Shown: positions 22-11,531 of the stretch, piece after piece | How positions within the stretch are numbered: position 1 is the first letter of the stretch | Layout: each line of letters opens with the position of its first letter | Source: Planctomycetales bacterium | GTDB lineage: Bacteria > Planctomycetota > Phycisphaerae > SM23-33 | Direction of reading: 5' to 3' | DNA: 32,836 bases | NCBI GenBank assembly: GCA_030612725.1 | Contig: JAUWNJ010000010.1 | Span: 1 to 32,836 of the forward strand | Translations under genes and position numbers: made by a program | The notes under the pieces: generated by a model | The model's database searches: none | Told to the model about the DNA's origin: nothing | Seen by the model: only the letters and a program-made list of their open reading frames with translations

Positions 22-933
22 TTATCGTGGCCGCAAACACCGCGGCCACGGCCCCCAACAAGCGGCGTATATCGGATAGGCCTTGAGATTAGCGGGGTTG
101 TATCGAATGGCCTTTCCGAGAAATTCCCTTCCCCGGCGACATCGACCCTGCTTGAGGAGGATTTTCCCCGCGCTGTAATGGACTCGCGAGAGCCGCCGAA
201 ACGCTTCTTTGCGGTCCAGCAGTTCCGCTCCGCCCCGCTCAAAATAAAACCGTTCGAGCATGGCCGCCTTGATTTGCCGCCCCCGGGCACGGTTCGAGCG
301 AGTCAGCGATTTTTCATGCCAACGCCGCTGCGCCAGGGGTTCGTCAATCAGGCCGAACTCGAATTCCGTCGATGCGCGAAGCCAGAACTCGTGCCCCACG
401 CAAACCGGAAGGGATTCGTCGAAACCGCCGCACTTATCGATTAACCGCTTGTGAAAAACAGCGGCAGGGTCGTGAACGAATATGCTCTTGAACAGTTTCC
501 GCGTCAATTGGCCTGCGAAGCACGGCTTGGAGTGGCCCTTCATCTCTTCGCCGTTCAGACGAATCGGCTGCATCGGCGTATAGACGATGCTGAGGTCGTT
601 GTTGGCGGCGAGGAAATCCATACAGCGGGCGAGTTTTTCCGGTATCCAGAGGTCGTCGGCGTCAAGCAGCGCGATCCACTCACCCTTCATCTCGGCGATA
701 GCGCGATTGCGAGCAGCGGCCAGGCCGTGATGCTCCGCCAGGATAGGTCTTATCTTCCGCCAGTCGGCAGCGAGTTCGCGGATAACCTCTGGCGTATCGT
801 CATCCGAACCGTCATCGACGATAATGACTTCCAGGTCCTGATACGTCTGCCGGCGTACCGAATCGACTGCCTCGCGCAGCATCTCGCCACAATTGTATGC
901 CGGAATGATAACGCTGACAGTAGGCCCAGCCAT
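22..933 (-). CDS. Family 2 glycosyltransferase (GT-A fold)
   Basis: Predicted cytoplasmic or membrane-peripheral enzyme that transfers a sugar from a nucleotide-sugar donor to a glycan or lipid acceptor. The 303-residue product opens with the GT2 signature VSVIIPAYN (about residues 6-14). It then has VDDGSDDD near residue 40 for nucleotide binding and a DxD-type metal site in LLDADDLW near residue 90. The C-terminal third (about 235-285) is helical and resembles a single TPR-like repeat (KQGRCRRGREFLGKAIRYNP). The ATG follows a weak GAAGGCG. It is the last gene of a long same-strand block, 15 bp after the second propeller gene. Its last eight or nine codons lie inside a hairpin repeat (26-50) that also occurs at 8825-8849, so the natural C-terminus was probably replaced. 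Substrate unknown. Confidence 0.9.
   Translation of the reverse strand: MAGPTVSVIIPAYNCGEMLREAVDSVRRQTYQDLEVIIVDDGSDDDTPEVIRELAADWRKIRPILAEHHGLAAARNRAIAEMKGEWIALLDADDLWIPEKLARCMDFLAANNDLSIVYTPMQPIRLNGEEMKGHSKPCFAGQLTRKLFKSIFVHDPAAVFHKRLIDKCGGFDESLPVCVGHEFWLRASTEFEFGLIDEPLAQRRWHEKSLTRSNRARGRQIKAAMLERFYFERGGAELLDRKEAFRRLSRVHYSAGKILLKQGRCRRGREFLGKAIRYNPANLKAYPIYAACWGPWPRCLRPR
26..50. repeat. 25-bp hairpin repeat, copy 1
   Basis: Perfect 9-bp arms (CGTGGCCGC and GCGGCCACG) enclose a 7-base loop. The same 25 bases recur exactly at 8825-8849. Here the repeat lies inside the 3' end of the glycosyltransferase gene and supplies its stop-proximal codons. Confidence 0.85.
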
Positions 934-948
934 AGGATACGCCTTCGA

Positions 949-2886
949 CTATTCCAGTGTAATTGCCCGGATTTCGTTCTGAACGACAAAATACAGTATT
1001 CCGTCGTGAATCTGAAGGAACTGTCCCTGCGCTTCGCCCGTCCGTACAATCGGCTCGAACGAAACTTCCGAGCCGTCCAGCGTAAGGGTGCAGATATGCT
1101 CGCCGACCGAGGCGTAGATTTTTCCGTCAGGCCCGACAGTCACATCGCCGAAGTCATCGGTAATCTCGTTCAGATATTCGATTGTCCCGTCGTCCGGGTT
1201 CCACACAAACAGAATCCCTGTCGTCAAATGCCAGGCGAAGTCAATCTTCCCGGCCAGGCCGAGGACCGCCCCGGACGGAAGCACCGCCAGCAGGCGAGCC
1301 GTCCTGGTTCCGTCGCGGACGCCTTGTTGTCGAGCGATGGTCAGGTTTTCGGTGTCGAACGCCACAAGTTGTGCGGTCCGTTCTGTAGCGGGGGTCGAAT
1401 CGCCGTCGGCATATACTTCGGTGGCGAAATATACCCTTTTTGCGTCGGGGTTAATCAGAAGTCTGTTGGGGGTCTGGTTTGGAACGATATTCCGCCAGAC
1501 GCGGACCTCGCCGGTTGTCGGGTCCAGGCGGGACAGTGCTCCGCCCAGGTTGCCGTACTCGGCGCTCGATGCCAGCCAGACGAACCGCCCGTCGTGGACC
1601 ATTGCCTTTGGCCTCATCTGTTCGTGCCCGACCTTCGCCAGGACGCGCGGGTTGTTGGGCCAATCCGGAGGGGAGTTCGGGTCAAAGGCGGTGATACTAC
1701 AGGTGGTATAACTGGCCATTATCAGTCTGGCGGTCGCCTCGTCCCAGACCATACCGCAGATTTGCCCGCCGCCGGGCGCTGCCTTACCGAGGTCTCGCCC
1801 TTCGCCGGTCGCCAGATCGGTTTCCCAGAACCGCTGGTTTATGTAAGGCCCGCCGAAAACGCGACCAATCTTCGGAACGACGCACATCGCGTGAGTATCC
1901 ATCGGGCCTGACGAGTCGAGTTGACAGTCGAATACCTCGCCGGTCTGCGTGTCGTAACGCAGGTATCGTCCGCCTGTGTCCAGCGCGCAGACATACCGGT
2001 CAGCAAGGGCGTGTAGTATTGCCGGCGAGTCGCCGACGAAGCGTTCCCGAGCGGGTTGCCACTGCGAGCCGTCGTCAGCAGGGTCAATGCGATACAGTCC
2101 GCCGCCAGGCCAGAACAGGCTGAAAATTTCACCGCCAATAAGACAACAGGCACGCCTCTGTAAATGATGACCTGATTCGGCGTCTCCCGGCGACCCGATA
2201 CGCCGGAGAAACTCGAACGACGGATACCGCAGGATGAGAATTTCATTTCCGGTTACGACTGCAAGACGCTCGGCATCCAGGAACGCCAGCCACTGCGTAT
2301 AACTCTGCCCCTCAAGTACTTCAGGCGTATGGGACTGCGCCTTCAGCGTCTCCGGGTCCAGCAGTATGAGCCTCGCCTGGGGAACGTTCAGGCCTAAGAG
2401 TATCTTACCGTCCGGGCATTCGAGGACATTGTGGGCATATCGGGAAGGAGGCTCTTCGGAGTCCAGCGGTTTGAGAACCTTCAGCACTTTCCGCTTCCGC
2501 CAGTCATAGACGCACGCATCGGAAGGTTCTGTTGACCAGATCACGAATGAATCGGTAACGCACCCGCCCCAGGTAATCCCATGCATCTGATCTCTGACGA
2601 GAACCTCTAATTTATCAACATGAGGGTCATAGGCGGCCAGTAAGCCTTTGGAGCATCCGAGGTAGAGCACCCCGTCCGGGCCGGGTTTAAGCATGTACGC
2701 ACCGCTTACCTCCGGCAGCCGGCGATAGAAACTCTCACCGGTTTCCGGGTCGAAGATGTATATCCGTCCGCCGTTTGAACCGCCGCCGACGCTTGAGACA
2801 AGCCGCGTCCGGCCGTCAATTTCAATCTCGGCGATTTCCGCGTTAACGAACGGGAGTCGCGTTTCGGGGATTTGATACTTCTGCAT
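949..2886 (-). CDS. Beta-propeller protein B (tandem paralogue)
   Basis: A 645-residue protein built from WD40/YVTN/SMP-30-like sheet repeats, seen as recurring blocks such as RIYIFDPETGE, PDGVLYLGCSKG and PDGKIYASVGEH. It should fold as a seven- or eight-bladed propeller, possibly two domains. There is no signal peptide or membrane segment, so it is predicted to be cytoplasmic. Function unknown; such proteins bind ligands or act as lactonase-like enzymes. The start ATG has GGAG six bases upstream. It is the downstream member of a tandem pair with 2982-4922; the two proteins begin with the same 22 residues and align without large gaps. The second half is far more conserved than the first, with two long tracts identical at the DNA level (1205-1263 and 1334-1416). 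The glycosyltransferase follows after 15 bp. Confidence 0.85.
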   Translation of the reverse strand: MQKYQIPETRLPFVNAEIAEIEIDGRTRLVSSVGGGSNGGRIYIFDPETGESFYRRLPEVSGAYMLKPGPDGVLYLGCSKGLLAAYDPHVDKLEVLVRDQMHGITWGGCVTDSFVIWSTEPSDACVYDWRKRKVLKVLKPLDSEEPPSRYAHNVLECPDGKILLGLNVPQARLILLDPETLKAQSHTPEVLEGQSYTQWLAFLDAERLAVVTGNEILILRYPSFEFLRRIGSPGDAESGHHLQRRACCLIGGEIFSLFWPGGGLYRIDPADDGSQWQPARERFVGDSPAILHALADRYVCALDTGGRYLRYDTQTGEVFDCQLDSSGPMDTHAMCVVPKIGRVFGGPYINQRFWETDLATGEGRDLGKAAPGGGQICGMVWDEATARLIMASYTTCSITAFDPNSPPDWPNNPRVLAKVGHEQMRPKAMVHDGRFVWLASSAEYGNLGGALSRLDPTTGEVRVWRNIVPNQTPNRLLINPDAKRVYFATEVYADGDSTPATERTAQLVAFDTENLTIARQQGVRDGTRTARLLAVLPSGAVLGLAGKIDFAWHLTTGILFVWNPDDGTIEYLNEITDDFGDVTVGPDGKIYASVGEHICTLTLDGSEVSFEPIVRTGEAQGQFLQIHDGILYFVVQNEIRAITLE

Positions 2887-2915: not shown

Positions 2916-2960
2916 TTACGCCATTTCAGGGATGATAACGCTGACAGTAGGATTAGTCAT
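2916..2960 (-). pseudogene. Chimeric duplication scar: glycosyltransferase start joined to amidohydrolase end
   Basis: A 14-codon open frame reads MTNPTVSVIIPEMA and then stops. The first ten residues match the start of the glycosyltransferase at 933 (MAGPTVSVII). The last four match the end of the amidohydrolase at 5072 (LIPEMA-stop), including identity at the DNA level over about 19 bases (2916-2934 against 5073-5091). It is best read as what remains after a duplicated block lost everything between these two points. It is unlikely to be functional, although it sits 45 bases from the end of propeller A's trailing region and could be translated. Confidence 0.8.
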
Positions 2961-2981: not shown

Positions 2982-4922
2982 CTATTCCAGCGGAATCTCC
3001 CAAAGTTCGTTGTGGACGGCACCGTACAATTTACCGCCGCGAATCTGGAGATACCTCGCCGGCCAATCGCCCGTCGCAACGAGCGGCTCGAAGGACGCCT
3101 GCGAACCGTCCAGAGTAAGCGTGCAGATGTGCTCGTCGAAGGCGGCATAGATTTGCCCGTCGGGCGCAACGACCATGGCGCTGAGTTCGTCGGTAATCTC
3201 GTTCAGATATTCGATAGAGCCGTCGGCGGGGTTCCATACAAACAGAATCCCTGTCGTCAAATGCCAGGCGAAGTCAATCTTCCCGGCCAGGCCGAGCAGT
3301 GACCCGGACGGAAGCATCGCCAGCAGGCGAGCAGCCCTAGTTCCGTCGCGGACGCCCTGCTGTCGGGCGATGGTCAGGTTTTCGGTGTCGAACGCCACAA
3401 GTTGTGCGGTCCGTTCTGTAGCGGGGGTCGAATCGCCGTCGGCATATACCTCTGTGGCGAAGTATATCCTTTTTCCGGCGGGGTCAGACACAAGGCTATT
3501 GGGCGTCTGATTGGGGACGATATTTCGCCAGACTCGGATATCGCCCGTTTGCGGGTCCAGGCGGGACAGCGCTCCGCCCAGGTGAGCGTACTCCGCACCG
3601 GAAGCCATCCAGACGAACCGCCCGTCGTGCACCATCGCCTTTGGCCTCATCTGTTCGTGCCCGACCTTCGCCAGTATGCTGGGATTCTCAGGCCAGCAGG
3701 CAGGAGCCGCCGGATTGAAGGCGGTTACGGTGCAGGTGGTGTAACTGGCCATTATCAGCCTTTCGGTGTCCTGGTCCCAGACCATCCCGCAGATTTGCCC
3801 GCCGCCCGGCGACGCCTTACCGAGGTCTCGCCCGTTACCGCTTTCCAAGTCAATATCCCAGAACCGTTGGTTGATGTAAGGCCCGCCGAAAACGCGACCA
3901 ATCCCGGGAACGACACAGAAGGCGTGAGTACGCAGCAGACCGCATGAATCCAATTCGAAATCCAATAGCTCGTTCGTCTGCGTATCGTGCCGCAAAAACC
4001 GGCCGCTCGTCGTCAGGGCGCAAACATAGCGGTCAGAAAGGGCATACATTATCGCCGGCGAGTCCCCCGCGAAGCATTTGCGTACGAGTTGCCAGTCCGG
4101 TAGATCGGCAGCGGGGTCAATCCGCCACAGGTCGCCGTCGGCGCCGAACAGGCTGTAGATATTCCCACCAAGCAGGCAACAGGCCCGTCTCGGCTGGATA
4201 AAACTCGCAGCCGCCTCCTTCGGCGGGGCGATCCGCCCGCTAACCTCAAAGGACGGGTACTGCAGCACGAAGAACTCGTTGTCGCACTCGACCGCAAGGT
4301 GTTCGGCGTCAAGGAACGCCAGCCAATGAGTGGTGGTGTGTCCTTGCAGTATCGAGGGGGTATGAGACTTCGCCTCCAGCGTGTCGGGGTCCAGCAGCAC
4401 CAGCCTGGTCTGGGGGAAGTTGAGGCCCAGCAGTATCTTTCCGTCGGGACATTCGATGACGCTGTGTGCGTACATAGCCGGCGGGTCGGAAGAATCCACC
4501 CGCTTGAAGGTCTTCAGAAGTTTCCGCTCGCGCCAGTTATAGACGCACGCCTCGCCGGGGTTGGCCGACCAGACCACCAGCGAGTCGGTAACGCATCCGC
4601 CCCAGGTAAGCCCGTCCATCTCGCCGCGGACGAGGACCTCGAACTTGTCCGCCTCCGGATCATAGACAACCAGAGCGCCTTCGGAGCATCCGAGGTAAAG
4701 CAACCCGTCAGGCCCGGGCCGCAGCATGTACGCGCCGCCGAGTCCATCAGGCAGGTGTCGGCAGATATTCTCGCCCGTCGCCGGGTCGAAGATGTATATC
4801 CGCCCGCAATCGTCGCCGCCATAGGTGCTCGAGACCAGACGAACCTGTCCGCCGACTTCGATCTCGGCGATTTCCGCATTGACGAAAGGCAGGCGCGTTT
4901 CGGGAATTTGATACTTCTGCAT
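2982..4922 (-). CDS. Beta-propeller protein A (tandem paralogue)
   Basis: A 646-residue paralogue of the protein at 949-2886, with the same N-terminus (MQKYQIPETRLPFVNAEIAEIE) and the same recurring sheet blocks (GRIYIFDPATGE, PDGLLYLGCSEG, PDGQIYAAFDEH). It is predicted to be a cytoplasmic multi-bladed propeller of unknown ligand. The start ATG has CGGAGAAG just upstream, conserved with the paralogue. It is separated from the upstream amidohydrolase by 149 bp, most of which is an inserted hairpin element absent from the paralogous spacer. Its position between amidohydrolase and glycosyltransferase-derived sequence suggests the ancestral order was amidohydrolase, propeller, glycosyltransferase. 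Confidence 0.85.
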   Translation of the reverse strand: MQKYQIPETRLPFVNAEIAEIEVGGQVRLVSSTYGGDDCGRIYIFDPATGENICRHLPDGLGGAYMLRPGPDGLLYLGCSEGALVVYDPEADKFEVLVRGEMDGLTWGGCVTDSLVVWSANPGEACVYNWRERKLLKTFKRVDSSDPPAMYAHSVIECPDGKILLGLNFPQTRLVLLDPDTLEAKSHTPSILQGHTTTHWLAFLDAEHLAVECDNEFFVLQYPSFEVSGRIAPPKEAAASFIQPRRACCLLGGNIYSLFGADGDLWRIDPAADLPDWQLVRKCFAGDSPAIMYALSDRYVCALTTSGRFLRHDTQTNELLDFELDSCGLLRTHAFCVVPGIGRVFGGPYINQRFWDIDLESGNGRDLGKASPGGGQICGMVWDQDTERLIMASYTTCTVTAFNPAAPACWPENPSILAKVGHEQMRPKAMVHDGRFVWMASGAEYAHLGGALSRLDPQTGDIRVWRNIVPNQTPNSLVSDPAGKRIYFATEVYADGDSTPATERTAQLVAFDTENLTIARQQGVRDGTRAARLLAMLPSGSLLGLAGKIDFAWHLTTGILFVWNPADGSIEYLNEITDELSAMVVAPDGQIYAAFDEHICTLTLDGSQASFEPLVATGDWPARYLQIRGGKLYGAVHNELWEIPLE

Positions 4923-4947: not shown

Positions 4948-5063
4948 GGGTGGCACGGTCAAGTTGAAGACTTGGCCGTGGCGAGTGCGTCTTGTGTCTC
5001 ACGACCAAGCTCCACTTCGTTCCACAACGTGGTCCTACGGACCGCTTGACCGTGCCGGCTCAA
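4948..5063. repeat. Long hairpin repeat element with GGGTGGCAC end
   Basis: Arms GGCACGGTCAAG (4952-4963) and CTTGACCGTGCC (5045-5056) are perfect inverted repeats bounding about 80 bases with more internal pairing. The paralogous spacer upstream of the other propeller (2887-2920) has matching flanks but lacks this block. A related element with the same GGGTGGCAC start lies at 19850-19953. Confidence 0.65.
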
Positions 5064-5071
5064 CGATTTTT

Positions 5072-5839
5072 CTACGCCATTTCAGGGATGAGGCGTTTGA
5101 GGTTTTTGTAGAGGATTTTTTCCTTTTGGGCCTTTGTGGCCTCGACGGTTTCAATCGCAATCAGGGCCGGTTTAGGGTATCGCAGAAGCATCGTCGAACC
5201 GAACATCAATCTCTCGGCTGTGCACGTCTTCAGTCCCTTTTCGACACCGACCCCGCACCCGCCGTGCATCATGGCGGTATCCTGAAATATCTTCGGCGCC
5301 TTTGCGCCTCGCGGCGGCTTGACCGGACCTGAATTGAGCAGCATGAACGATGCCCCGCGGAACTTTTTGAACATCGCCATGATTTCATCGGCCGGAACCT
5401 GGCGTGAGTGGTCCAGGTGGCTTCGCCCGCGAAGGTCCATAACCCGTCCATAGACAGCCACCCGCATTTTCAGTTCGTGAGCGGCTGCGACTATCTCGGT
5501 TGCCAGGTCGTCGGTGAGTTTGTACGGGTGATACTGCGGGATAAGTCGCAGCACCGGCATTGCGAATTCTTCGCGGCACTGCTTCAGGTCGTCGGCCCAT
5601 CCGAAGTAGGTCGGATTAATGATAGCGCAGGGGATCAGGCGGTCGCGGTGTCGGCGGACAGCCTCGGCGAGTTCACGGTTGGCTTCGTGGGAATCCTTGT
5701 AGAAGATACCCTGGAGCGAACCGACCAGCGCCTTGTCTATTCCCTGGGAATCCATCTGCTGAAGCAACTCTGCTGCGGTGGTGCGAGGCAGGCGGCGATA
5801 GGGCCAATGACCAATCCATGTGTCGGCGTCGTAAATCAT
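5072..5839 (-). CDS. Amidohydrolase-2-like protein, metal ligands missing
   Basis: A 255-residue TIM-barrel protein of the amidohydrolase-related superfamily (PF04909-like). The overall pattern fits: an N-terminal strand opening with an aspartate (IYDADTWIGHWPYR), a central NPTYFGW and a C-terminal RLMFGSTML. Compared with active members, the N-terminal HxH pair is replaced by WIGH and the usual Asp of FG(S/T)D is Thr. The protein may therefore bind metal differently, use none, or act as a non-catalytic partner. Its ATG overlaps the stop of the canonical amidohydrolase upstream (ATGA), and AGGAAG precedes it, so the two are translationally coupled and probably co-function. Substrate unknown. 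Confidence 0.75.
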   Translation of the reverse strand: MIYDADTWIGHWPYRRLPRTTAAELLQQMDSQGIDKALVGSLQGIFYKDSHEANRELAEAVRRHRDRLIPCAIINPTYFGWADDLKQCREEFAMPVLRLIPQYHPYKLTDDLATEIVAAAHELKMRVAVYGRVMDLRGRSHLDHSRQVPADEIMAMFKKFRGASFMLLNSGPVKPPRGAKAPKIFQDTAMMHGGCGVGVEKGLKTCTAERLMFGSTMLLRYPKPALIAIETVEATKAQKEKILYKNLKRLIPEMA

Positions 5840-6603
5840 ATCTTCCTCATCTTAAGTATTCTTTGCATGTTTCCGCCCCAGATCATTTCGCGCTGTCGCG
5901 GCGTGATGTCGGCGTCGAGTATTTTGCCTACCCCACGTTCTGTGGACATGTCGGTTGCGAACAGCAGTCGCTCTGCGCCGAGGTCGCGGACGGCCTTTTC
6001 GATCATTCCGGCGTCGATGACGCTTCCGCTGGTGTCCATATAGACGTTTTTGGGGGCATGGCTCATAGCCTTTATCTGCCACTCCCAGTCGCCGCCGCCG
6101 CCGATATGCCCGATGATGAAGATCGCTTCGGGGCACAACTTCGCCGGGGCGATGAAGTGGTCGGCCCCGCTTATTCTCGGCTGGGCGGCGAGGGTCTCCT
6201 CGTCGGTCGGATGACCGGCGTGCATGAGCATCGGAACGCCCAATTCGGCGCATCGCTCGATCACCGGGCTGAAGACCGGATCGTCCATCCGATACTGGTG
6301 GTAGAACTTCAGCCCGACCATCCCGCTATCCACGACGCAGCGGGTAATCTCGTCCTGGGCAAAACGGATGTGTCCGGGGTCGATGAAGCACAGGCCCAGG
6401 ATCACGTCGGGATACGTCCGCATCGCCGCCATTATGTCGTTATTGGCCCGGCGAATCTGCTTCGGATCGGTCGGCTTGGTGGCCAGCGGATGGGAACAGC
6501 AGACTTTATCTACGCCGAGTCGCCGCGCGTCGGCCACAACCTGATGATGGTTTGGCCACGGCCCCATCGAAACTGAACAGTGTGCATGACAGTCAATTCG
6601 CAT
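5836..6603 (-). CDS. Amidohydrolase (PF04909-type metal-dependent hydrolase)
   Basis: Predicted cytoplasmic metal-dependent hydrolase or decarboxylase of the ACMSD/amidohydrolase-2 group, about 255 residues. Visible features in order: RIDCHAHCS (HxH metal ligands, residues 3-7), VGLKFYHQY in the middle, LMHAGHPTD, IIGHIGGGGDWEW and FATDMS near the C-terminus. These are the ligand-bearing strand ends of the family. I chose ATG 6603 because GGAG lies five bases upstream; the in-frame TTG at 6618 would put that site inside the gene. Its stop overlaps the start of the next amidohydrolase by four bases. The 55-bp spacer upstream is a word-like repeat. Substrate cannot be read from sequence. Confidence 0.88.
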   Translation of the reverse strand: MRIDCHAHCSVSMGPWPNHHQVVADARRLGVDKVCCSHPLATKPTDPKQIRRANNDIMAAMRTYPDVILGLCFIDPGHIRFAQDEITRCVVDSGMVGLKFYHQYRMDDPVFSPVIERCAELGVPMLMHAGHPTDEETLAAQPRISGADHFIAPAKLCPEAIFIIGHIGGGGDWEWQIKAMSHAPKNVYMDTSGSVIDAGMIEKAVRDLGAERLLFATDMSTERGVGKILDADITPRQREMIWGGNMQRILKMRKI

Positions 6604-6620
6604 TGGTTCTCCATTCAATT

Positions 6621-6686
6621 GGTAGCCAGTAGTCGGGAGAAATAGCCCGCACTTACCGGATACCGACTATTGACTACCGGCTACTA
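6621..6686. repeat. Inverted word repeat (TAGCCAGTAGTC type)
   Basis: GGTAGCCAGTAGTCGGGA on the left is answered by ACTATTGACTACCGGCTACTA on the right, an imperfect inverted pair filling the whole spacer between two genes. The same word recurs at about 8855-8875 and 23091-23128. Confidence 0.6.
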
Positions 6687-7495
6687 TTTTTACAGGCGTT
6701 AATCATCGCGCCGAACAACACCTTACGATGATCGGCGTCTTTCATTCGTTCCGGATGCCACTGCACCAACAGACAAAACCTCTTACCGGTCATCTCCAGC
6801 GCCTCGATAACGCCGTCGGCGCTGCGGGCGACAACTTTCAGCCCCTTACCAACGTCTCCGACGGCCTGGTGATGAGAAGAGTTCACTATGACCCGTTCAG
6901 CGCCAAGGATTTTACACAGCCTACTTGCCGGGTCAATGGTAATCTCGTGCTCAGCACCCTTGCCTCGGTGGATGACCTTTGTGCCGACCTGTGTCGGGAT
7001 GTCCTGAATGAGCGTTCCACCGGTTACAACGTTGACGAATTGCGTTCCGAGACAAACGCCCAGCAGTGGTTTGTCGGTCTGAAGCCAGCGCGAAATAAGT
7101 TTGCTCTCGAACTCGTACCGTTCCGCCGGCATGGTTCTGGTCTGCGGGGCCGGCTCCTGTCCGTAGGCTGACGGCGGGACGTCCGCGCCGCCGATTACCA
7201 CCAGGCCATCGAGCGATTGAATATATCGCTCCAGTGCGGATTCGTTCCGTATTACCGGAAGTATTACCGGCGCGCCGCCGCCTTCGATAACGGCGTGAAC
7301 ATAATCAAGACCGATACGCACATGGGCCTTACCCTGTCCGCGCCCGGTTCGATAAACGCTGGTCAGACCTATCAGAGGCCTGACCGACGGAGCGGTTGAG
7401 GTGGGTTGACCCTTATCGGATTTGTCCTTGCATCCAACTATTAGAAGCAACACAACCAGCGGAAATACCCACGCAAGCCGTTTCGGGCGAGTCAT
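6674..7495 (-). CDS. Lipoprotein class-I glutamine amidotransferase-like hydrolase (peptidase C26)
   Basis: A 273-residue protein related to gamma-glutamyl-gamma-aminobutyrate hydrolase (PuuD-like), which cleaves gamma-glutamyl amides. The N-terminus is a lipoprotein signal peptide: MTRPKRLAWVF then a hydrophobic stretch ending IVGC, with Cys22 as the lipidated residue, followed by a Ser/Thr/Pro-rich linker. The fold core shows VVIGGADVPP (about 99-108), nucleophile Cys148 in GVCLGTQ, and the His247/Glu249 pair in QWHPE, so the triad is complete. Most family members are cytoplasmic; the lipobox implies periplasmic or membrane-anchored action. The start lies three bases after the stop of the amidohydrolase upstream, so the two are coupled. 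Confidence 0.85.
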   Translation of the reverse strand: MTRPKRLAWVFPLVVLLLIVGCKDKSDKGQPTSTAPSVRPLIGLTSVYRTGRGQGKAHVRIGLDYVHAVIEGGGAPVILPVIRNESALERYIQSLDGLVVIGGADVPPSAYGQEPAPQTRTMPAERYEFESKLISRWLQTDKPLLGVCLGTQFVNVVTGGTLIQDIPTQVGTKVIHRGKGAEHEITIDPASRLCKILGAERVIVNSSHHQAVGDVGKGLKVVARSADGVIEALEMTGKRFCLLVQWHPERMKDADHRKVLFGAMINACKNSSR

Positions 7496-7498
7496 GCG

Positions 7499-8296
7499 TC
7501 AATCCTTCCATTTGAAAAGCGCTTTGGCATTCTCGAAGCCGATAAGATCGACTTGCCTCTGTGACAGACCGCTGTGCGTGAGTTTGTAGGCGGCCATGTC
7601 CAGATCGCATATCGGGAAATCCGTTCCGAACAGTACTCTTGCGGCTCCGATTTTGTTAATCGTACTCTCGAAAGCGCCCGCGGTGAACAACACCCAGGCA
7701 GAGCAGTCCGTCCAGACATTCTCGCAGTCCTTAATCGCCTCGATTCCGTCCCTCCAGAACCGAAAACCGCCGAAGTGCGCCATGATAATCCTGGCAGCGG
7801 GATATTCTACCGCCAATTTGGCTATTGCCTGAAAATGCTCCGGCTCGGAGGAATGGAGATTCAACGGAACGTCCAGTTCGATCGCCTTTTCGATGATCGC
7901 GCGAATCTCCGGAGAATCCAGATCGAAATCCAGCACGTGCGGACATATCTCGCCGATACCGACGAAGCCCATCTCCCTAACGGTGCAGTCCATCTCTTCC
8001 AGCGACTCGTCAAGGTAGTGTGGGTTCACCGAGCAGTAACAGCCACAGAACTGGTCGGGGTAGTCTCGGGCCAGTTCCGCCATGTAGCGGTTACCGGCTC
8101 GCATTTCCCCAGCCGACGGTCCCATCTCGTTCCCGCCGCTGGAGATAATCATCTTATCGACGGGAGATTCCCGTACGACCCGTACTATGTCGGCGGCGGA
8201 GATTTCCCCTTCGCCCAGGCTGACCAGTTCCCAGTGGAATCCCGGAACGCCGGGTCCTTGCTTGATGGGTGGATGCGCGTGTACATCAATAATCAT
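7499..8296 (-). CDS. Amidohydrolase (PF04909-type metal-dependent hydrolase)
   Basis: Predicted cytoplasmic metal-dependent hydrolase of 265 residues. It carries IIDVHAHPP (HxH) at the very N-terminus, VPLNLHSSEPEH and IIMAHFGGFRFW in the middle and VLFGTDFPI near the C-terminus, so the canonical ligands are present. The open frame extends upstream to 8551, but that part lies inside the DUF1284 gene. I therefore start at ATG 8296, which has GGAAAGGAA five bases upstream and begins directly with the HxH strand. It overlaps the DUF1284 gene by 11 bp and is followed after three bases by the lipoprotein hydrolase. It is the third amidohydrolase in this block; substrate unknown. Confidence 0.88.
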   Translation of the reverse strand: MIIDVHAHPPIKQGPGVPGFHWELVSLGEGEISAADIVRVVRESPVDKMIISSGGNEMGPSAGEMRAGNRYMAELARDYPDQFCGCYCSVNPHYLDESLEEMDCTVREMGFVGIGEICPHVLDFDLDSPEIRAIIEKAIELDVPLNLHSSEPEHFQAIAKLAVEYPAARIIMAHFGGFRFWRDGIEAIKDCENVWTDCSAWVLFTAGAFESTINKIGAARVLFGTDFPICDLDMAAYKLTHSGLSQRQVDLIGFENAKALFKWKD

Positions 8297-8753
8297 CAGG
8301 TTTCCTTTCCGCCCAAAGTCCTTTTTCAATCGCTCGACGATACTCGGCGAATCCGCTGGGCGAAGCGCTGGTGCAGTTGGTACAAATCTCGCCGACGTCG
8401 GGTATCCGCTCACGAAGACGCTGCTCCAGATCGCGTGCGACAATCGTTTCACCGACCTGAAGTCCCAGACGTCCAAGAATAACGCGATCCCACTGGCGGA
8501 GTTTTTCGCTCTGGGCGGCAATTCCGCCTTCAGCGTCCTTGCCACGCCCACATCCTTCGGGCATCTTTATCGGGCAAATCTCACACACATCGTCGAAGTC
8601 CGCCATTATCGTAATTTCCAGATCAGGATTTCCCTGTAATTTCCGAAGAAGGTCCGGAATCGCGTTGTCGATACCGAAAAACTCCTTCGCTGTCTCCTTG
8701 CCGGAACCATAGAAGCAATATGAACAAATCAAATGATGTCCGCGAACCTTCAT
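8286..8753 (-). CDS. DUF1284 cysteine-containing protein
   Basis: A 155-residue protein opening with KVRGHHLICSYCFYG, which matches the KxRGHHLLC signature of DUF1284. A second cysteine cluster (DDVCEICP then EGCG) around residues 54-70 is also typical, and the family is suspected to bind metal or an iron-sulfur cluster. Function unknown. An additional C-terminal pair, GEICTNC, is present here. No membrane segment or signal peptide. It overlaps the downstream amidohydrolase by 11 bp and so is probably in the same transcript. It is separated from the fused dehydrogenase upstream by 114 bp of hairpin repeats. Only a weak AAAAGG abuts the start codon. Confidence 0.8.
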   Translation of the reverse strand: MKVRGHHLICSYCFYGSGKETAKEFFGIDNAIPDLLRKLQGNPDLEITIMADFDDVCEICPIKMPEGCGRGKDAEGGIAAQSEKLRQWDRVILGRLGLQVGETIVARDLEQRLRERIPDVGEICTNCTSASPSGFAEYRRAIEKGLWAERKPDDY

Positions 8754-8779
8754 CCTTTTGCTTTCACTGACCGTGGTAC

Positions 8780-8849
8780 CGTGGTCGCTGCGTTTGCGAC
8801 CACGTTCACGCCAAGTCGCTTTCGCGTGGCCGCAAACACCGCGGCCACG
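8780..8849. repeat. Two adjacent 9-bp-arm hairpins; second is hairpin-repeat copy 2
   Basis: CGTGGTCGC/GCGACCACG (8780-8788 with 8796-8804) and CGTGGCCGC/GCGGCCACG (8825-8833 with 8841-8849) both have 7-base loops. The second is identical to 26-50. They occupy the spacer between DUF1284 and the dehydrogenase and could act as transcript-processing or attenuating hairpins; no T-run follows. Confidence 0.8.
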
Positions 8850-8867
8850 GCACCCGACTACCGGCTA

Positions 8868-11531
8868 CTACTTGACGATGTTTTCCTCGCCCGTCTGTAT
8901 CATTTCGATATTATTGTTCGGGCAGCGCCATATGCACATTCCGCAGGCGACGCAGGCATCTTCGTCAAGGACGGCTTTGCCGTTGGCGTCCATGCTCCAG
9001 GCGAAGACTTTGCAGATGTCCATGCAGATTTCGCATCCCGCCCCGCAACCACAGGACAGACATCGCCCTGCTTCGGCGACGGCCTGGGCCTGCGTCAGCG
9101 TCGCGGCGTATTCGTCAAAGTTGGTTACTCGCCTGGCCGGGGCGACATTCTCCAGAACGGGACGCCATCGGCGAGTCCGGTCTTCGGTTCTTTGCAGAAC
9201 CGTGTCCTTATCGACGACAGTTTGCTCGGCATCATACGCCAGGGAAGCCTCGTCGCCGGCCAGGGAAATATCAATAGATGCGGCTGCACGTTTACCGTCG
9301 GCGATGGCGGTTATCACGTTTTGCGGGCCGCGAGCACAATCGCCCCCGGCATAGACGCCGGCGACGTTCGTCGCGCCGGTTTTCTCGTCGGTCTTAATCG
9401 TATTCCATCGCGTCAATTCAAGGTCTCTTCCGGCATCGACCGTTACGCCCTGACTGACGGCGGGGATTACCGTATCGACGTCAAGAGTGAATTCCGTACC
9501 GGGCACCTCGACCGGTCTGCGCCTTTCGGAGGCGTCCTGTTCGCCGAGGACGTAATTCAACATGCGAATTTTATCGACCTTCCCGTCGCCGATAACTTCC
9601 TGCGGCGAAACGAGGTACATGATTTTTACGCCTTCTTCTTCGGCTTCGGCTATCTCCTCGGTCGATGCGGGCATTTCGTCTTTGGTCCTTCGGTAGAGGA
9701 CAAAGACCTCCTCGGCCCCCAGTCGCAGCGCTGTCCGCGCCGAATCGACGGCAGTGAAACCGCCGCCGATTACCGCCACGCGCTTTCCAACGTCGGGCTT
9801 CTCGCCAAGCGAGACGGACTTGAGAAAATCGACAGCGCCGACACAGCCGGTGAGTTCCTCGCCGGCGATTCCCAACTTCATTCCTTCCTGAGCGCCGATA
9901 CCGAGGAAGGTCGCATCGTAACCGTCGTCCTTCAAAGACTTGATGGTTATGTCTTTCCCGAATGCGGTATCGGTTTTGAATTCAACGCCGAGTTCTTTAA
10001 TTACGTCGATTTCCTTATTTACGTCCTTTTCATTCAGCCGGAACGTCGGTATGCACGAAGTGAGCATCCCTCCGAGTTTCGATGCCGACTCGAAAACCGT
10101 TACACCATAGCCAGTCCGACCCAGGTCGTACGCACACGCAAGCCCGGCAGGACCAGAACCGATAACGGCCACCTTTTTGTCTTTCTTGCCGGCCTTATCG
10201 TCGAGCAGGCGGGGCTTCCAGCCTTCCTTTTCCGCCATTTCGAGTACGAACCGTTTAATCTCGCGGATCATAATCGGTTCGTCCATCAGGCCTCGGGTGC
10301 ATTCGTCCTCGCAGGGATGATCACAGACCTTCCCGCAGATAGACTGAAGCGGGCTACGAGACATTATCAATTGATACGCCTCCTCGAACTCTTCCTCTGC
10401 CACTTTGCGAACGTATCCCTGTGCCGGAATCGAGTTCGGACAGGCGTAGGTGCAGGGTGCGACGAGGTTGTCGTCGATTTTGCGCGCGTTTCCGGCGTAG
10501 ATCGTCAGGTCGGGCGCTGAAGTAATGGCCGGTACGAGTATGTCGCGCATATCTCGCGGGGCTTTGTATCCTTTTTCTTTCAGGAATTGCTTAAAACCGT
10601 GGATGAATTCGGGCATGAATCCGAAGCCATAGACCAGCGTCGCGGTGCAGATTCCGATAAGGTCCGCCCCGCACATCATCATCTCTACGGCGTCCTCCCA
10701 GGTCGTTATCCCGCCGGTACCGGTGAGGTTCGCGTCAGGCCCGCACATTTTTCTCATTTCATAGACGTCCCGCAGCGCGAGCGGCTTGAGCCATTCGCCG
10801 TTCATGCAGGCCATTCCGATTTCTTTCTGGAGGAGGTACATCGAGGCGGTCGGGTCGTCGAGGTTAATCGGCGGTATCGCCAGGCGGTTCGCGTTTCCGC
10901 CGACGGCGTCTGCGCCGGCGTCGAGCGCGACTTTGGCTATCGGCGCCTGGCGGCTTCCTTCGGGGGTAATCTTGACAAAAAGCGGGATGGACGTCTCTCG
11001 CTTGATTTCCTTGACGATCTCGGCGATTGCCTGTTCGTTCTGTCCGAGGCTCGCGCCGGTCTTCGGCCCGCCGGTATCGTGACCGCTGACTTCCACGTTG
11101 AAGGACATGTTCGGGCAGCACATATTCAACTCGTTTATGTGCACGCCGGCTTCTTCGCATTTTTTGGCCATATTGACCCATCCGGCGCCGCCCTCGTCGC
11201 CGGCATAGGTGATATTGGAGAAGAGCACGAGATTGGGCGCTCGCTTCCGTCCCTGCTCGATGAGTTTGAGCAGGTCGGCAAGCACCAGCCTGCGCTCGGC
11301 AGTGAAGGACAGGAACGTCCTGTCGGGATAGTACCCGTATCGTGGATAGCGATTGATGTACGGTTCGGGGTCGATCGTCAGTTTCAGCGACGCGCCGCCC
11401 CATCCGCACTCGTCCATCCTCTCAAGTTGCTCGACCGTCATCGTCGTAGGCCCGGACGAAACGTAAAAAGGATTGCGAAACTTTACACCCGCTATCGTTA
11501 CGGGAACGTCAAAATCTGTGTACTTGGACAT
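8868..11531 (-). CDS. PreA-PreT-type fused dihydropyrimidine dehydrogenase-like flavoprotein
   Basis: An 887-residue redox enzyme combining both halves of the NAD(P)-dependent dihydropyrimidine dehydrogenase system. Residues 1-340 form the FMN-binding dihydroorotate-dehydrogenase-like barrel (GVKFRNPFYVSSGP; LNMCCPNMSF near 136-144). Residues 355-430 carry the GltD-type iron-sulfur domain (Cys360, 364, 399, 403, 407, 411). Then comes an FAD/NAD(P) oxidoreductase pair (GSGPAG at about 458; GGGFTAVDSA) and a C-terminal cysteine-rich segment from residue 824 including CVACGMC-IWRCP. The order is permuted relative to mammalian DPYD, where the barrel follows the GltD-like half. At the loop corresponding to GLACGQ of DPYD, this protein reads GASLGQ (160-164), so the usual catalytic Cys is absent. 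The substrate may not be a pyrimidine. Start ATG with AAGGAATAAGG upstream. Confidence 0.85.
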   Translation of the reverse strand: MSKYTDFDVPVTIAGVKFRNPFYVSSGPTTMTVEQLERMDECGWGGASLKLTIDPEPYINRYPRYGYYPDRTFLSFTAERRLVLADLLKLIEQGRKRAPNLVLFSNITYAGDEGGAGWVNMAKKCEEAGVHINELNMCCPNMSFNVEVSGHDTGGPKTGASLGQNEQAIAEIVKEIKRETSIPLFVKITPEGSRQAPIAKVALDAGADAVGGNANRLAIPPINLDDPTASMYLLQKEIGMACMNGEWLKPLALRDVYEMRKMCGPDANLTGTGGITTWEDAVEMMMCGADLIGICTATLVYGFGFMPEFIHGFKQFLKEKGYKAPRDMRDILVPAITSAPDLTIYAGNARKIDDNLVAPCTYACPNSIPAQGYVRKVAEEEFEEAYQLIMSRSPLQSICGKVCDHPCEDECTRGLMDEPIMIREIKRFVLEMAEKEGWKPRLLDDKAGKKDKKVAVIGSGPAGLACAYDLGRTGYGVTVFESASKLGGMLTSCIPTFRLNEKDVNKEIDVIKELGVEFKTDTAFGKDITIKSLKDDGYDATFLGIGAQEGMKLGIAGEELTGCVGAVDFLKSVSLGEKPDVGKRVAVIGGGFTAVDSARTALRLGAEEVFVLYRRTKDEMPASTEEIAEAEEEGVKIMYLVSPQEVIGDGKVDKIRMLNYVLGEQDASERRRPVEVPGTEFTLDVDTVIPAVSQGVTVDAGRDLELTRWNTIKTDEKTGATNVAGVYAGGDCARGPQNVITAIADGKRAAASIDISLAGDEASLAYDAEQTVVDKDTVLQRTEDRTRRWRPVLENVAPARRVTNFDEYAATLTQAQAVAEAGRCLSCGCGAGCEICMDICKVFAWSMDANGKAVLDEDACVACGMCIWRCPNNNIEMIQTGEENIVK

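Follow-up and report, generated by a model that had tools for sequence, protein, structure and literature searches.

The analysed window, a stretch of 32,836 nucleotides from an uncultured planctomycete, carries between two propeller genes a mini-frame of 45 bases and 14 codons (2916 to 2960, minus strand) which, judged by its base-level matches, is a real scar of DNA breakage and joining that unites the ends of two neighbouring genes, a glycosyltransferase and an amidohydrolase-like gene. By the substitutions that it carries, the scar is also younger than the propeller pair that it separates, and it is therefore not the joint that founded the pair. With moderate confidence, we regard it as an inert recombination scar in an often-rearranging tandem locus, in which the start of an inner glycosyltransferase copy and an amidohydrolase end were joined by short-homology recombination after the split from the lineage of a related genome, G003.

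On the minus strand, the genes follow each other in the order amidohydrolase (5836–6618), amidohydrolase-like gene, propeller A, mini-frame, propeller B and GT2 glycosyltransferase (GT). The amidohydrolase-like gene (5072–5839, minus strand), with a weak PF04909 match, is the source of the scar's right half (2917–2935), and the GT (22–933, minus strand; PF00535) is the source of its left half (2929–2951). Propeller A (2982–4922, minus strand) groups in its core with propeller X of G003 and has part of its 3′ half homogenised with propeller B; the latter (949–2886, minus strand) is beta-propeller-like with weak SGL and PQQ_2 matches and is the orthologue of propeller Y of G003. Positions 2952 to 2984, ahead of the scar, hold the stop codon of propeller A, a leader, and the ATG with the two codons that follow it, and the gap from the scar's stop to propeller B (2887–2915) contains the ribosome-binding site AACGGAGAAACAA. 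The window begins at the end of contig C9 in a 65-contig, 3.16-Mb genome, and the region beyond the GT lies outside the view. Ahead of the propellers (window 5072–11531) lie three amidohydrolase-family genes and a C26 glutamine-amidotransferase-like gene, adjoined by a dihydropyrimidine-dehydrogenase-like fusion (8868–11531), and all of these possibly form one catabolic operon. Additionally, the gap between amidohydrolase and propeller A holds a dispersed inverted-repeat element (about 4948–5060) with the ends GGGTGGCACGGTCAAG and CTTGACCGTGCC. Its ACTTGACCGTGCCACCC occurs in 8 copies in the window genome and 79 in G025, the reversed control pattern giving 0, and a similar sequence lies in the same amidohydrolase–propeller gap of G003.

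Read on the minus strand from 2960 to 2916, the mini-frame is ATGACTAATCCTACTGTCAGCGTTATCATCCCTGAAATGGCGTAA, translated as MTNPTVSVIIPEMA followed by a stop codon. Its part CCTACTGTCAGCGTTATCATCCC agrees with the GT start at 902–924 in 22 of 23 bases, with an exact run of 20, and keeps the reading frame of the GT as well as the same distance of three codons from the ATG. Its part TCATCCCTGAAATGGCGTA agrees with the amidohydrolase end at 5073–5091 in all 19 bases, or in 25 of 28 when the first bases past the stop codon are included. The junction of these two gene ends, which a sequence-only reading had claimed, thus holds at DNA level, and the formal comparison of the spacer with both ends that it had proposed does detect similarity: a repeat finder returned both matches unprompted, as D7 (902–938 with 2929–2965, 81%) and D9 (2908–2935 with 5064–5091, 89%). 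In a pattern search over the whole genome and five relatives, the left half, at up to three mismatches, was found only at 902–924 and 2929–2951, and the right half, with the exact bases of the window, only at 5073–5091 and 2917–2935, the amidohydrolase end of the close relatives differing from that of the window by at least 2 bases. These unique sources, the repeat finder and a chance expectation of about 5e-9 for 20-base matches between spacer and GT start rule out a chance match as the origin of the scar. On this evidence, the similarity is real and the two neighbouring genes are its sources, each half matching uniquely a distinct parental site, as is looked for in a short-homology joint.

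The two halves overlap at TCATCCC (2929–2935), the short match at which the same reading had placed the breakpoint. A short match is indeed present there, but exact identity at the breakpoint extends over TCAT alone, 4 bases, since TCATCCC is exact on the amidohydrolase side only and the present GT has TCATTCC, one base different. A match such as TCAT has a chance of about 1.6% at a random joint, and over TCATYCC the match is 6/7, with one mismatch.

Past the coding block, the identity on the GT side falls abruptly, from 22/23 bases inside to 14/33 outside (Fisher P = 4e-5), and a weaker fall is seen past the stop codon on the amidohydrolase side, from 19/19 to 6/9 (P = 0.026). The scar leader (2952–2984) is unalignable with the present GT leader (permutation P = 0.77), which is itself conserved in G003. 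This mismatch, taken together with the conservation in G003, implies that the GT start in the scar derives from another copy or allele, and the leader suggests that a distinct GT copy once stood behind propeller A. No second copy of the scar leader was found elsewhere in the genome at up to three mismatches, so that its copying from another place in the genome is ruled out, as is its derivation from the X–Y spacer of G003, with which similarity is absent (P = 0.98). A weak resemblance to the GT start of G029 (P = 0.02) is one of several comparisons and is not relied on.

The propeller pair itself is mosaic. Over the core of the codon alignment (columns 420–1002), A groups with X of G003, and B groups with Y, with the propeller of G002 and with Y′ of G025; the grouping of A with B is rejected over this region (AU p = 0.00035). 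In four-way site counts over columns 480–960, 49 sites favour A with X and B with Y, 13 favour A with B and 5 the third pairing. A and B are about 67% identical in the core and about 70% outside converted tracts. By contrast with this divergence, they reach 91% over columns 1440–1722, with identical runs of 83 and 59 bases (permutation 95% limit 34), which we read as recent gene conversion; columns 1002–1440 also favour A with B. Over the first 420 columns the grouping of A with B is not rejected, and the last 290 columns favour neither grouping. B itself departs to an unusual degree from all relatives over its first 420 bases. Since the core of A groups with X of G003 and not with B, the core of the pair predates, on this phylogenetic evidence, the split between the window lineage and G003, and the pair has been partly homogenised since. 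The 83- and 59-base identical runs further indicate recombination among the copies of this locus.

The age of the scar can be read from the amidohydrolase end, which is CCG-GAA-ATG-GGG/GGA in G002, G003 and G025, whereas the window has CCT-GAA-ATG-GCG. Both substitutions of the window lineage (CCT and GCG) recur in the scar's right half, which was therefore copied from, or homogenised with, the gene of this lineage after the split. Both halves together are identical to their sources in 42 of 43 bases, against about 70% between A and B outside converted tracts (P = 4e-6) and 87% between the amidohydrolases of the window and G003 (P = 0.02), both values being indicative, as the blocks were chosen for matching. 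Consequently, the scar was rejected as the founding joint of the propeller duplication: the pair is present in G003 without this joint, lineage-specific substitutions are found in the scar, and the AU test (p = 0.00035) separates A from B. The sequence-only reading had treated the junction as a trace of the origin of the pair, which does not agree with a pair whose core predates the G003 split and a scar that is younger. Conversion of the right half within a long tract from propeller A was also rejected, given that A and B diverge in the gap and across their initial 99 coding bases (80% identity).

The closest relatives come from assemblies of uncultured ‘Planctomycetales’, the locus being read from metagenome-type assemblies, and the genomes compared did not include one close to the window species in which the spacer is covered. 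G029 (L025) has the order amidohydrolase–amidohydrolase–propeller–GT with one propeller, which is the unduplicated order that the sequence-only reading had proposed to look for, and it thus represents a relative that keeps the unrearranged parental order, as is looked for beside a short-homology joint. In G002 (L023), the amidohydrolases are accompanied by a single propeller, and a GT of this kind was not found anywhere in the genome. Two propellers separated by another sequence, which the reading had named as evidence against its history, are found in both G003 (L022), with X followed by Y and a short spacer without GT or amidohydrolase sequence, and G025 (L024), with the reverse order Y′ then X′, a few bases apart, X′ running off the contig; neither spacer contains the scar. 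The full six-gene tandem, with GT and amidohydrolase between two propellers, which it had also proposed to look for, was found in none of 35 family genomes and 397 class genomes nor in a contig scan, four genomes of the genus being covered. In G001, the GT tail is 90% identical and other parts of the locus were not found, the propellers being absent from this 77%-complete assembly. In G127 and G388, a propeller of about 40% identity is present, with neither a neighbouring GT of this kind nor a closely adjoining amidohydrolase, and no relative was found in viral contigs. The X-type propeller of G025 (L024, G025:C338, 1–1130) has an N-terminal lipoprotein-like signal stretch, MRASIKAGVVVTIVLIVAGLAVQQGCH, and a Spirochaetota assembly (L019) has a 55% identical propeller without these amidohydrolases or the GT.

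In G003, the GT behind propeller Y has been deleted between AAGGCGTATCC and AAGGCCTATCC, 11-base near-matches (L022, G003:C140, about 9437–9480). The leader behind Y is that found behind B (TAGTCGAAGGCG, followed by TATCC, which is common to both deletion ends), and this B-type leader runs directly into the C-terminal bases of the GT, whose tail remains. By these matches, the loss of the GT in G003 left another short-match scar in this locus, with a different joint and independent of that in the window.

In the origin that we favour for the window scar, propeller A would once have had its own diverged GT copy behind it, with an amidohydrolase end ahead of propeller B. Illegitimate recombination at TCAT(C)CC would then have removed the intervening DNA, either by intrachromosomal deletion or by unequal exchange between two chromosomes, in the window lineage and after its split from G003, and the 14-codon frame would have remained open owing to the in-frame union of its two pieces. 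The near-identical coding ends with diverged flanks would suit intact gene copies that, after homogenisation of the kind seen in the propellers, were lost at a short-match joint. Unequal exchange between two one-propeller chromosomes would fit this pattern of coding ends and flanks equally well as intrachromosomal loss. An intact inner amidohydrolase as old as A and B would need gene conversion before its loss in order to look young. Against this proposal stand the exact match at the breakpoint, of only 4 bases, and the result that none of the 35 family genomes carries a second GT or a second such amidohydrolase between two propellers.

A possible but somewhat doubtful variant within this proposal is the literal history put forward by the sequence-only reading, namely an old duplication of the three-gene block, a persisting six-gene array and a late deletion in the window lineage. 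It would account for an old leader beside a near-identical coding start, and for near-identical coding ends beside diverged non-coding flanks (the Fisher P of 4e-5 on the left and 0.026 on the right). However, the array is present in no genome searched, the inner genes would have to have been removed independently and without trace in both G003 and G025, and G025 carries the propeller types in the opposite order. The deletion of an inner GT copy, which this history includes, fits the GT half of the scar, as this half resembles a GT copy distinct from the present one and with a leader of its own; the array from which the inner copies would have been lost was not found. Moreover, it can no longer be called the simplest history, since one tandem duplication with its ends at the two TCAT(C)CC sites would arrive at this gene order and joint in one step and without a six-gene stage, though the leader speaks against it.

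Such a one-step duplication, running from amidohydrolase end through propeller to GT start with its ends at TCAT(C)CC, and with parts of propeller A and the leader later overwritten by another allele, is in our judgement unlikely. It requires the fewest events for the gene order itself, its starting order is present in G029, and A and B do group together in columns 1002–1440 and 1440–1722. However, if the duplication were old, the right half should lack the lineage-specific substitutions, and if it were young, the leader should resemble that of the present GT, which it does not, and A and B ought to be nearly the same along their whole length, whereas their core is about 67% identical and their grouping is rejected there (AU p = 0.00035). 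It is rather improbable that an exchange at the 4- to 7-base match reunited single-propeller chromosomes, one of the A-plus-GT lineage and one of the B lineage, and thereby rebuilt the tandem pair; if true, such a reunion of chromosomes would offer bacteria a way to restore paralogue pairs that had been lost.

We give little credence to a short templated insertion, in which template switching would have brought about 60 bases from the two neighbouring gene ends into an existing short A–B spacer like that of G003. The pair does occur with a short spacer in G003, and AACGGAGA flanks the inserted stretch on both sides; against this, two switches about 4 kb apart would be needed, with start codon and frame ending correctly placed, and the spacer of G003 is without similarity to the left flank of the scar (P = 0.98). 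Finally, a selected short leader peptide coupling the translation of propeller B to that of propeller A is hardly credible: there is an open frame with an ATG and a Shine–Dalgarno-like GGAG about 11 nt upstream, but this is poorly spaced, the frame is absent from G002, G003, G025 and G029, its second half is fully accounted for by the amidohydrolase end, and propeller B is served by a ribosome-binding site of its own with better spacing, AACGGAGAAACAAATG. The poorly spaced Shine–Dalgarno-like sequence, the absence from relatives and the origin from two gene ends are the grounds on which the mini-frame is taken as inert, and it is probably without a product of importance.

In terms of known systems, a study of verified spontaneous deletions and duplications with microhomologies at their junctions deduced cut-offs of at least 8 bp for deletions and at least 11 bp for duplications (PMC3411829). 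In another, 9-bp borders were used for precise illegitimate recombination, microhomology was not necessary, and tandem duplication with and without microhomology was discussed (PMC11111574). The window scar resembles these short-homology joints in that distant sequences are joined locally at a short match, with a mobile element absent from the joint, and differs from them in being fixed between diverged paralogues, in having an exact match of 4 bases (6/7 over TCATYCC) and in joining two different gene ends in frame. The propellers, in turn, resemble tandem paralogues undergoing gene conversion (concerted evolution), since recent tracts (identical runs of 83 and 59 bases) are common to A and B within genes that have otherwise diverged; this process accounts for the propeller mosaic but not for the scar itself.

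The scar is therefore an ordinary event, with nothing that falls outside the known class of bacterial short-match joints, and it leaves the knowledge of recombination mechanisms unchanged; its value lies in dating and in a corrected history. It represents a clean fossil joint that is datable against its flanking genes, and it carries the warning that a joint found between two paralogues is not necessarily the one that made them. The locus as a whole shows a small gene cluster of an uncultured planctomycete gaining, losing and homogenising tandem copies.
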